Shown here one piece after another: positions 31,212-42,693 of a DNA stretch of 43,025 nucleotides; positions within the stretch are counted from its first letter, which is position 1; every line of letters begins with the position of its first letter. The stretch comes from Clostridiaceae bacterium (GTDB lineage: Bacteria; Bacillota; Clostridia; Acetivibrionales; DUMC01), in assembly GCA_012840075.1 (NCBI GenBank), contig DUMC01000018.1, positions 1 through 43,025 on the forward strand, in the 5' to 3' direction. A program made the translations under genes and the position numbers. The notes beneath the pieces are model-generated. The model did no database searches and was not told where the DNA came from. It worked only from the letters and a program-made list of their open reading frames with translations.

Positions 31212-31665
31212 TGATAAATAAAAAAGTCTTCATCCTAACATAGGACAAAGACTTTTATTTCTAATCTCTGCGGTACCACCTAAATTGCGTAGAAACGCCT
31301 CTCATTTCCATGTACTTACATACATGCTTCCTTGATAACGGGTGAAGTTCCCGCCCGGCATACTTTTCCGCAATCTAAACTAAAACTTATCCAAACTCTA
31401 TATCCAAAATTAAATCATACGTTTTGTTTCTATAATCTGAATCTGTTCTCCGATAAACTTATACGTTATGCTCTGATAAACTTACATCTAATGATTAATT
31501 ATATATTTTTTGATTATATAATTTAAATTATATACTCTCTGTTCATGCGGAATTTCAGCCAAGTCCTCCTGAGTCCATTCGCTGTAAGCTTTATCATCGC
31601 AATCCCACCGCCTGCGACTCTCTTGGGATAAAGACCTTACGCTACTATTCTCAGTCATCGGTTTA
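31212..31665 (-). promoter_or_regulatory. T-box riboswitch, tryptophan type, upstream of trpB2
   Basis: Reads on the minus strand. Stem I: lower helix CUGAG (31654-31650) with CUCAG (31573-31569); AGUAG motif in the specifier loop; AGAGAG bulge; GGUGGGA distal loop. The specifier loop 3' strand reads CGAA-UGG-A, with UGG (Trp) at 31577-31575. T-box sequence AGGTGGTACCGC at 31281-31270, terminator at 31253-31225. Uncharged tRNA-Trp should stabilise the antiterminator and switch on trpB2. About 170 bases of AT-rich sequence between stem I and the antiterminator make it longer than most. Confidence 0.9.
31225..31253 (-). terminator. T-box terminator of trpB2
   Basis: AGTCTTTGTCCT and AGGATGAAGACT pair (one bulge or mismatch) and are followed on the minus strand by TTTTTTATTT. 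Part of the T-box switch. Confidence 0.85.
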
Positions 31666-31847
31666 AGCCAAATTATTAAATTTTATAAAACGCTTTAAAA
31701 AACAGTTTTATAAAATTGTCTTACTGTCGTACATATTAAACGATTGTACATTAAAACTAACTGACAAAACAATGGATAAATTTAAAAATATGATATCTTA
31801 AAAAAGAATAACTGTCAATAGAAAAAATTTTATTTCAGCAAAACCTT

Positions 31848-39416: not shown

Positions 39417-39445
39417 TTGACTTTCATAAGTAATTCTCTTAGAAT
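39417..39445 (+). promoter_or_regulatory. Promoter of the T-box-controlled ABC importer operon
   Basis: TTGACT (39417-39422), 17-base spacer, TAGAAT (39440-39445). Transcription would begin near 39452, some 85 bases before stem I of the T-box. Confidence 0.75.
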
Positions 39446-39451
39446 TATAAC

Positions 39452-39822
39452 AAAATTTATTGTAGTGATTTAGTTAGCATTAATGTAGCTAGATGCGAAA
39501 AGATATATTTTGTACGGAATCGTTAATATAGAATAAATAGCGATGACCTGGAAGTAGTAACGGAAGCCAGGGTCCTTTAAGAGAGCTTTCGGGTGGTGCG
39601 AGAAAGCAGGATGCCTTTCCGTGAATTCATCCAGGTAGCTGCAGGCTGAAAGGTAAAAGATGTTACAAATGCTATAGCAATTACCCTGTAGGCTGCGCCA
39701 GGTTCCACCTGTTATAGTGGAGGAGCAATGATTGTTGCTCGCTGAGGTTGTGAAAAACAACGAAGCAAGGTGGTACCGCGATGGAAAGAATCGCCCCTGC
39801 GAAAGCAGGAGGCGATTTTTTT
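39452..39822 (+). promoter_or_regulatory. T-box riboswitch with phenylalanine (UUC) specifier
   Basis: Stem I: GAUGA kink-turn, CCTGG/CCAGG lower helix, AGUAGUAA on the 5' side of the specifier loop, AGAGAG bulge, distal loop GGUGGUGCGA capped by GCTTTC/GAAAGC. The specifier strand is GUGAA-UUC-A, with UUC at 39626-39628, aligned exactly as GAA-UGG-A in the trpB2 leader of this window. T-box AGGTGGTACCGCG at 39768-39780, then the terminator. It should open the downstream ABC importer when tRNA-Phe is uncharged. Confidence 0.85.
39789..39822 (+). terminator. T-box terminator of ABC importer operon
   Basis: AATCGCC-CCTGC, GAAA loop, GCAGG-A-GGCGATT, followed by a T-run. Mutually exclusive with the antiterminator formed by the T-box sequence. 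Confidence 0.9.
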
Positions 39823-39934: not shown

Positions 39935-41002
39935 ATGAAAAAACATGTTAGAATTTTAGCTATAGTGTTAGGTATTATGATGCTTGCAACAATAGCAGGA
40001 GGGTGTTCCAATAAGGAAAGTACTACAAGTACAAGTCAAAGCGGTCAAAGCCAAAGTCAAAGTCAAAATGAAAATGTAACACAAGATACGAAAGAAACAA
40101 ACACATCAAAGAAACAAAAAATAGGTATTATCCAGTATATAGAGCATGTTGCTTTAGATGCGGCAAGGGAAGGTTTTGTAGCTGCACTGGAAGATAACGG
40201 TTACAAAGACGGTGAAAATATTGAAATTGATTATCAAAATGCTCAGGGGGATCAAAGCAATCTTTCTACGATCAGCGACCGTTTTATAAGCAACCAGGTA
40301 GATTTGATACTGGCAATTGCTACTCCCGCAGCGCAGGCTGTTGCCGGAAAAACCAAGGAAATACCGATTTTGGGAACTGCCATAACGGATTATGTAGCCG
40401 CCAAATTGGTTAATTCAAACGAAGCTCCCGGTACTAATGTAAGCGGTACGACTGATATGAATCCAATAAAAGAACAGATCGATCTCTTGCTTAAGCTGGT
40501 ACCCGATGCTAAAACAATTGGTGTCTTATATACATCTAGCGAAGATAACTCTATAGTGCAAGCAAAAATTGCCAGAGAAATTATCGAAGGTCTAGGACTT
40601 AATTATGTTGAAGTTACAGTTACTAATTCAAATGAGGTACAACAAGCTACCCAGTCCATTGTAGAGAAGTGTGATGCAATATATATTCCTACAGATAACG
40701 TATTTGCATCAGCAATGCCCATAGTCCATGGCGTTACTTCGCAGTCCAAAACTCCGGTTATATGCGGCGAGGCCGGAATGGTGCAAACAGGTGGCTTGGC
40801 AACTTTGGGTATAAATTATTGGGAGCTGGGTTATCAGACAGGATTGATGGCAATTAAAGTTCTGAAAGGAGAAGCTCATCCTTCTACAATGCCTATAGAA
40901 TCCTCTACCAAGTTTGATTTTGCAATAAACGGTACTGTTGCTGAAGAGATTGGTTTAGAGATACCTGAAGACCTCAAGCAATACATTATAGAAGGAGAAT
41001 AA
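39935..41002 (+). CDS. Substrate-binding lipoprotein of TrpXYZ-type ABC importer
   Basis: 355 residues. Lipoprotein signal: KKHVRILAIVLGIMMLATI then lipobox IAGGC (Cys ~24); a Ser/Gln-rich spacer (TSQSGQSQSQSQNENV); then the ABC_sub_bind domain (KIGIIQYIEHVALDAAREGF, GDQSNLSTISDRFI, TNVSGTTDMNPIKEQIDLL, PVICGEAGMVQTGGLATLGINYWELG). This family includes the TrpX component of tryptophan importers of Firmicutes. The leader T-box reads a Phe codon, so phenylalanine or a related aromatic compound is the more likely ligand here (inference). Confidence 0.87.
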   Translation: MKKHVRILAIVLGIMMLATIAGGCSNKESTTSTSQSGQSQSQSQNENVTQDTKETNTSKKQKIGIIQYIEHVALDAAREGFVAALEDNGYKDGENIEIDYQNAQGDQSNLSTISDRFISNQVDLILAIATPAAQAVAGKTKEIPILGTAITDYVAAKLVNSNEAPGTNVSGTTDMNPIKEQIDLLLKLVPDAKTIGVLYTSSEDNSIVQAKIAREIIEGLGLNYVEVTVTNSNEVQQATQSIVEKCDAIYIPTDNVFASAMPIVHGVTSQSKTPVICGEAGMVQTGGLATLGINYWELGYQTGLMAIKVLKGEAHPSTMPIESSTKFDFAINGTVAEEIGLEIPEDLKQYIIEGE

Positions 41003-41005
41003 TAG

Positions 41006-41899
41006 ATGTTGCAGATTATTACAGGCGCAATTTCCCTTGGATTGCTATGGGCTGTTATGACTATTGGAGTATATATTACCTATCGTATTCTGAATATGGC
41101 AGACTTAACAGTGGAAGGCAGCATTGCCATGGGTGCAGCAATTACGGCTAAAGCAATAACAAGCGGAATAAATCCTTATGTAGCAACTTTTTTGGCTTTA
41201 ATAGGCGGAATGGCAGCAGGACTGATTACAGGCCTGCTGCATACTAAAATGAAAATACCTGCATTATTGTCCGGTATTTTAACAATGATTGGATTGTATT
41301 CCATTAACCTGAGAATTATGGGAAAGGCAAATATACCTTTATTGCGAATGGAAACTGTATATACTCCTTTTGAAAACATAGGATTGGACCGTAACAACGC
41401 AGTTATTGCCGTAGGATTCATTTGCGTTTTAAGTTTAATAACAATTTTATACTGGTTTTTTGGTACTGAAATCGGCTGCGCTATACGTGCAACAGGAAAT
41501 AATCCCCGCATGGTTACTGCTCAGGGTATAAACACAAATACAACAATAATTATAGGTTTGATAATCAGTAATGGGTTGGTGGCACTAGGCGGTGGCTTAA
41601 TTGCACAAAATCAAAGCTTTGCTGATATCCAAATGGGAACGGGAACAATTGTAATAGGTTTGGCTTCCGTAATCATAGGGGAGGTTCTCTTTGGGAAAAG
41701 GAACTTCTACATCCGCTTAGTATCAGTTGCTCTTGGTGCTATTACTTATAGGATGATAATTGCATTTGTACTGAAGCTGGGTATGCCTGCAAACGATCTT
41801 AAGCTATTTACGGCTATTACGGTTGCCATTGCATTAGCATTACCTTCAATCAGGAATTACTTTTATCCTGCCAAAATGACCATTAAGGAGGAAGAATAA
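41006..41899 (+). CDS. Permease of TrpXYZ-type ABC importer
   Basis: 297 residues, about nine helices, of the branched-chain/ribose-type permease superfamily (TrpY-like). Recognisable: YITYRILNMADLTVEGSIAMG and the coupling region TEIGCAIRATGNNPRMVTAQGIN, then GLIISNGLVALGGGLIAQNQ. GAAGGAGAA precedes the ATG, which lies three bases after the lipoprotein stop; its own stop overlaps the ATPase start (TAATG). One transporter per operon. Confidence 0.87.
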   Translation: MLQIITGAISLGLLWAVMTIGVYITYRILNMADLTVEGSIAMGAAITAKAITSGINPYVATFLALIGGMAAGLITGLLHTKMKIPALLSGILTMIGLYSINLRIMGKANIPLLRMETVYTPFENIGLDRNNAVIAVGFICVLSLITILYWFFGTEIGCAIRATGNNPRMVTAQGINTNTTIIIGLIISNGLVALGGGLIAQNQSFADIQMGTGTIVIGLASVIIGEVLFGKRNFYIRLVSVALGAITYRMIIAFVLKLGMPANDLKLFTAITVAIALALPSIRNYFYPAKMTIKEEE

Positions 41900-42693
41900 T
41901 GCTGTGGGTTAATGGAATATATAAATGTTTTAATGCAGGAACGGTAAATGAAAAGATTGCACTGCATAATGTAAGTTTATATCTTGAAAAAGGAGATTTT
42001 GTGACTCTGATCGGAGGAAACGGAGCGGGAAAGTCCACGCTTCTTAACTGTATAGCAGGAGTATACCCGGTAGATAAAGGTTCTATAACAATTGACGGGG
42101 TTGATGTTACAAAATTAAGTGAATATAAACGTGCAGCATTTCTTGGGCGTGTTTTTCAGGATCCTATGATGGGAACTGCTTCTGACATGGGAATTGAAGA
42201 GAATCTTGCTTTAGCTTATAGGCGCGGGCAGAGAAGGGGCCTAAAATGGGGTATTACTAATAAGGAAAGAGAATTGTACAAAAAATTGCTTAGTCAGCTG
42301 GGTCTAGGTCTTGAAAATCGCCTTAGTACAAAGGTAGGATTATTATCAGGAGGACAGCGGCAAGCTATAACGCTCTTAATGGCAACTTTGAAAAGGCCAA
42401 AACTACTGTTGCTTGATGAGCATACAGCGGCCCTTGATCCCAAAACCGCAGAAAAAGTTCTTGAATTAACTGATACCATCGTTAAGGAAAGTAATCTTAC
42501 TACTTTGATGGTGACGCATAACATGCGCGATGCTATAAAACACGGCAACCGCCTAATAATGATGCATGAAGGACGTATTATTTTGGATATAAGAGGCGAA
42601 GAAAAGAAAAAACTTACCGTGGAAAATCTGCTTGAGCGTTTTGGTAAAGTAAGCGGTGAAGAGTTTGCTAATGACCGGGCATTGCTTTCGTGA
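41899..42693 (+). CDS. ATPase of TrpXYZ-type ABC importer
   Basis: 264 residues. Walker A GGNGAGKST, Q loop in VFQDPMMGTA, signature LSGGQRQA, Walker B LLLLDEHTAALDP (His follows the catalytic Glu, where Pro is usual in many ABC ATPases), switch His in MVTHNM. TrpZ-like. Coupled to the permease gene. No terminator could be seen in the AT-rich sequence after the stop. Confidence 0.88.
   Translation: MLWVNGIYKCFNAGTVNEKIALHNVSLYLEKGDFVTLIGGNGAGKSTLLNCIAGVYPVDKGSITIDGVDVTKLSEYKRAAFLGRVFQDPMMGTASDMGIEENLALAYRRGQRRGLKWGITNKERELYKKLLSQLGLGLENRLSTKVGLLSGGQRQAITLLMATLKRPKLLLLDEHTAALDPKTAEKVLELTDTIVKESNLTTLMVTHNMRDAIKHGNRLIMMHEGRIILDIRGEEKKKLTVENLLERFGKVSGEEFANDRALLS

Follow-up and report, generated by a model that had tools for sequence, protein, structure and literature searches.

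A T-box with a phenylalanine specifier before a TrpX-type ABC importer, and the probable substrates of the importer

Does the codon read by a T-box leader tell which amino acid is taken up by the transporter behind it? The question is raised by a three-gene ABC importer of the TrpX type in a stretch of 43,025 nucleotides from a Clostridiaceae bacterium (contig DUMC01000018.1, positions 1-43,025, here called the window). An earlier note on this DNA had read a UUC specifier in the leader of the importer, and took it to predict a response to phenylalanine starvation and to suggest transport of phenylalanine or another aromatic substrate. A survey from 2008 placed ABC transporters under tryptophan, not under phenylalanine, T-boxes (PMC2494555). 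NSS-family transporters of the Bacillus cereus group do stand behind phenylalanine T-boxes, as the importer in the window does, but they are unrelated sodium symporters and not ABC importers (PMC2494555). In the literature searched we found no report of a phenylalanine T-box before a TrpX-type importer; an earlier mention is possible.

The leader and its specifier codon

Aligned to the full length of RF00230 (model positions 1-219), the leader occupies positions 39,534-39,801 of the plus strand with 90.1 bits (E 3.1e-20). The curated cut-off is 93 bits, and only because of this cut-off did a default Rfam run over the window give no entry for the leader. RF00230 finds 13 T-boxes in this genome, six of them below the cut-off, and synthetase leaders are among these (hisS 92.9, thrS 85.6, valS 71.7 and pheS 59.8 bits). 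The genes of the T-box operons were recognised from their protein sequences and not by family search. The strongest T-box of the genome (L001, G000:C56:7855-8141, minus strand) can be read as GAA-C-GCA-G in an Ala frame or as GAA-CGC in an Arg frame; downstream lie a 173-aa ORF and an ORF resembling a PLP aminotransferase.

Stem I of the importer leader carries AGAGAG and GGUGGUG motifs. The AG bulge and distal loop are present, as is the loop E around the specifier, with AGUA of the S-turn (39,556-39,559) opposite GAA (39,623-39,625). The antiterminator core GGTGGTACCGCG (also written GGUGGUACCGCG) lies at 39,769-39,780, where 0.03 chance sites with at most one mismatch are expected in the whole window, and includes the UGGU of the bulge (39,771-39,774). 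An intrinsic terminator hairpin with a U-run follows at 39,784-39,822 (-25.8 kcal/mol, z -8.9); its 5' strand overlaps the 3' strand of the antiterminator, and the two structures are mutually exclusive. The leader is a standard transcriptional T-box with a terminator, all parts lying on the plus strand; the T-box proposed before the importer is thereby confirmed. The range given to it earlier, 39,452-39,822, begins just past a promoter-like TTGACT-17-TAGAAT (39,417-39,445, plus strand; 10 of 12 matches, such sites occurring in the region at about chance number) and ends with the U-run of the terminator. A minus-strand ORF at 39,470-39,760 that overlaps the leader was taken as chance.

A second T-box of the window (31,238-31,667, minus strand, 64.9 bits) precedes trpB2. 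It measures about 430 nt, and when aligned to the Rfam model it shows 185 nt separating both sides of stem II. The specifier loops of both leaders align as the earlier note wrote, GAA-UGG-A before trpB2 and GAA-UUC-A before the importer. In this genome GAA-NNN cannot safely be aligned by eye, since the spacing varies: the T-boxes of tyrS (UAC), trpB2 (UGG) and hisS (CAC) have the codon immediately after GAA, while one extra base intervenes in those of pheS (G-UUC), the DAHP synthase gene (G-UUC), ileS (A-AUC), thrS (G-ACC), valS (G-GUA) and a MetN-type operon (C-AUG). Since the spacing GAA-N-codon is found in about half of the genome's T-boxes, both UUC (Phe) and UCA (Ser) were weighed as specifier of the importer leader.

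The lower helix of stem I, formed by CCUGGA (39,547-39,552) and UCCAGG (39,630-39,635), leaves GAA-UUC-A in the loop and thereby makes UUC (39,626-39,628, followed by A39629) the specifier. Folding of stem I alone by minimum free energy gave no clear gain over shuffles, and therefore covariation was used. Across the stem I of 26 homologous leaders, 95.0% of the cells are paired, and both partners have changed in 13 of 18 pairs; the covariation score was reached by none of 500 shuffles and not approached by any slid version. The outer pairs of the lower helix covary, and the innermost one, A39552-U39630, is kept in 25 of the 26 leaders. Sister leaders carry UAC at the very three bases that are UUC in the window, which argues against a frame shifted by one base. 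The shifted frame, a serine specifier UCA, takes its appeal from the spacing in the other T-boxes, which makes the frame a fair question, and it would give a loop of 8 nt if the lower helix had only 5 bp. Against this, A39552-U39630 closes the helix in nearly all leaders, and TBDB, counting back from the 3' side of the specifier loop, takes bases 2-4 as the codon (PMC7778990). Furthermore, the homologues would then read UCA, UCG, UCC and ACA, a mixture of Ser and Thr codons without a consistent amino acid, and the G73 of tRNA-Ser would meet UGGU by wobble only. On the helix, the homologue codons and G73 we reject the serine frame, which is hardly credible. The UUC frame has held against helix and homologues, and no other triplet is placed at the specifier.

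UUC is complementary to the anticodon of the genome's own tRNA-Phe(gaa). This tRNA and tRNA-Tyr end in ACCA (A73), while tRNA-Trp and all four tRNA-Ser end in GCCA (G73); UGGU can therefore form Watson-Crick pairs with the former two, but only wobble pairs with the latter. UGGU is present in 42 of 44 UUC or UAC leaders of the family, and the UGG leaders have 14 U versus 11 C (Fisher p 3e-6, uncorrected for relatedness). Only a response to tRNA-Phe accords at once with the helix, with the UAC codons of homologous leaders and with the discriminator bases of the tRNAs, which supports the earlier prediction.

Further phenylalanine T-boxes of the genome precede pheS and a DAHP synthase gene, and the importer would thus join a small set of functions under phenylalanine starvation, namely charging, synthesis and uptake. 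The T-box of the DAHP synthase gene reads GAA-G-UUC (L003 and L269, G000:C129:55157-55460, minus strand); the gene seems to stand alone, with the next downstream ORFs on the opposite strand. Auxotrophy does not explain the switch, because a single pheA and a single tyrA homologue are present.

The importer and its binding pocket

Behind the leader, on the plus strand, lie a TrpX-like substrate-binding lipoprotein (PF04392, 39,935-41,002), a permease (BPD_transp_2, PF02653, 41,006-41,899) and an ATPase (ABC_tran, PF00005, 41,899-42,693), in the profiles and operon order of the family. The lipoprotein is the only TrpX-family binding protein of the genome. Its best NCBIfam match is ABC_SBP_TrpX (NF041285), with 343.4 bits against a curated cut-off of 390; the protein is a member of PF04392 and not a TrpX equivalog. 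Its nearest solved relatives are CD0873, SP1069 and VC_1101, with tyrosine, tryptophan and phenylalanine bound, respectively. The model of the lipoprotein (pLDDT 94) matches them with TM scores of 0.94, 0.93 and 0.94 at 49%, 39% and 37% identity.

Bradshaw et al. described two selectivity sites in these proteins, the first occupied by Glu (Tyr binding) or Ala (Phe, Trp) and the second by Tyr (Tyr, Phe) or Gln (Trp) (PMC6816091). The protein of the window belongs to the tyrosine type by its Glu279 and Tyr295, and has the shared residues T130, A149, T151, D174 and N255 as well. Its two selectivity residues match Glu263 and Tyr279 of CD0873 (PDB 6HNI), the tyrosine-binding lipoprotein of Clostridioides difficile, in which the Glu hydrogen-bonds the tyrosine OH (PMC6816091). 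CD0873 is stabilised specifically by tyrosine among the 20 amino acids. Its ligand was shown by crystal structure and thermal shift (PMC6816091). The Phe-binding VC_1101 of Vibrio cholerae (PDB 3LKV) shares the fold, the contacts to the amino and acid groups and the Tyr at the second site, but it has Ala at the first site, where the window has Glu, and Phe bound in the crystal. At the indole-contacting site, Gln284 in SP1069, the window has Tyr295.

The pocket is evidence for tyrosine no less than for phenylalanine, and for this reason the specifier alone is no proof of a phenylalanine importer. The earlier suggestion that phenylalanine or some other aromatic compound is transported is in keeping with the family, in which structures with bound Trp, Tyr and Phe have been solved (PMC6816091). 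A parallel is CD0876-CD0877 of C. difficile, an importer of the same family and paralogue of CD0873: strains without it took up less Tyr and Phe (Steglich et al., PMC5951980), the dual specificity that we propose for the window. T-box regulation of CD0876-CD0877 is not reported in that paper, whereas the importer of the window is led by a T-box; for CD0873, too, the C. difficile transporter literature examined makes no mention of a T-box. The trpXYZ operon of Streptococcus suis resembles the window in protein family, kind of operon and transcriptional T-box with terminator, but combines a Trp specifier with Gln in the pocket, where the window has UUC and Tyr (PMC9382623).

Codons and pockets across the family

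TrpX-family genes were collected from the order, class and phylum of the window and from named genomes. After removal of repeats 221 remained, of which 209 had 350 or more upstream bases. A motif search located the leaders, and doubtful cases were settled from Rfam alignments or from the sequence. This survey of specifier codons before homologues, which the earlier note had proposed, gave 24 UUC leaders (the window included), 20 UAC and 27 UGG; 138 genes had no T-box by the motif method, a figure that is an upper bound. Among 54 close homologues with enough upstream DNA, the motif search found no T-box for 18; the genes around homologues that lack a T-box gave no functional clue.

The UUC and UAC leaders fall into one clade, four distant UAC loci excepted (SH-aLRT 100; 100/100 in the bootstrapped tree). 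UAC is nested inside UUC twice, and a tree in which the UUC rows are held together is rejected (AU p 0.00015). The simplest history has UUC first, a one-base change to UAC in the genus g106 and another change in a tandem pair. The latter (L045:2560-6700, JASGUQ010000019.1) consists of two TrpX-type binding protein genes, the first with a GAG-UUC-C leader and an Ala pocket, the second with GAG-UAC-A and a Glu pocket; in this pair the codon changes in step with the pocket. The four distant UAC genes (L199, L211, L217, L218) belong to a lineage placed near CD0873 with weak support, and possibly represent a second origin of tyrosine T-box control. T-boxes are known to change their specificity in evolution (PMC3766115).

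Glu/Tyr is found under 20 of 20 UAC leaders, under 21 of 24 UUC leaders (Ala/Tyr in the other 3) and under 15 of 27 UGG leaders, which otherwise have Ala/Tyr (11) or Ala/Gln (1). With Glu under 15 of the 27 UGG leaders, the two-residue code was rejected as a sufficient predictor of substrate.

These data bear on two other views of the importer. It might be specific for tyrosine like CD0873, with a phenylalanine T-box out of step that uses phenylalanine shortage as a proxy for aromatic shortage. The matching Glu and Tyr residues speak for this, as do the Glu-type pockets behind every UAC leader and the tandem copies of L045, in full agreement with the published pocket code (Ala behind the UUC leader of the first copy, Glu behind the UAC leader of the second). 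Glu279 at the site where VC_1101 has Ala, and the recurrence of the same motif under tyrosine T-boxes, count against a phenylalanine importer. However, the frequency of Glu under UUC and UGG leaders means that Glu alone is no tyrosine marker, and loss of the C. difficile paralogue lowered the uptake of Phe as well as Tyr; we regard strict tyrosine specificity as rather unlikely. Far less probable is that the importer is a genuine tryptophan transporter of the TrpXYZ kind and that its leader misleads. ABC_SBP_TrpX is indeed the best NCBIfam match, but the score stays below the curated cut-off, the pocket has Tyr instead of the Gln of SP1069, and the leader reads UUC and not UGG. Moreover, where a genome has both forms, UGG stands before a different copy: G036, G098 and G298 each have one UUC copy and a separate second copy with UGG, which suggests that these cells keep tryptophan uptake apart from the UUC-led importer. 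The leader counts and the UUC clade with UAC nested in it leave the tryptophan reading unsupported here. The contrast drawn earlier with TrpXYZ-type importers as usual tryptophan transporters is weakened too, as proteins of the TrpX type are no longer associated with tryptophan alone. Most likely the importer takes up phenylalanine and/or tyrosine, the best reading to reconcile the pocket, the codon survey and the uptake by CD0876-77.

A proposed switch and its meaning

From sequence, covariation, complementarity to the genome's own tRNA and conservation of UUC in the clade, we infer the following regulation and substrate. Uncharged tRNA-Phe(GAA) would pair through its anticodon with UUC at 39,626-39,628 and through its ACCA end with UGGU at 39,771-39,774. 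Both contacts together would stabilise the antiterminator over the terminator at 39,784-39,822, and phenylalanine shortage would switch on the importer genes at 39,935-42,693. The substrates would be phenylalanine and probably tyrosine, with tryptophan transported at most poorly. As a whole, a tRNA-Phe T-box that induces an importer of this specificity is the best explanation of the locus and, in our view, a probable one.

A more tentative idea is that sensor and pocket evolve apart in this family: UUC may have become UAC by one base while the two published selectivity residues stayed constant, and the lineage of the window might have a phenylalanine switch over a Tyr-preferring or Tyr/Phe importer. 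What surprises is a constant pocket under a changing sensor codon. The genes of the family are easily named tryptophan transporters from sequence alone, and the survey reveals three sensor codons before them. Annotation makes use of the assumption that the substrate of a transporter can be predicted from its T-box specifier; the pockets that hardly differ between UUC and UAC leaders, and the tandem copies of L045 with their joint change of codon and pocket, form a set on which this can be tested. If sensor and pocket do evolve apart, riboswitch codons would report the amino acid that is lacking in the cell and not the preference of the transporter, and for aromatic importers the T-box specifier would be no safe guide to annotation.
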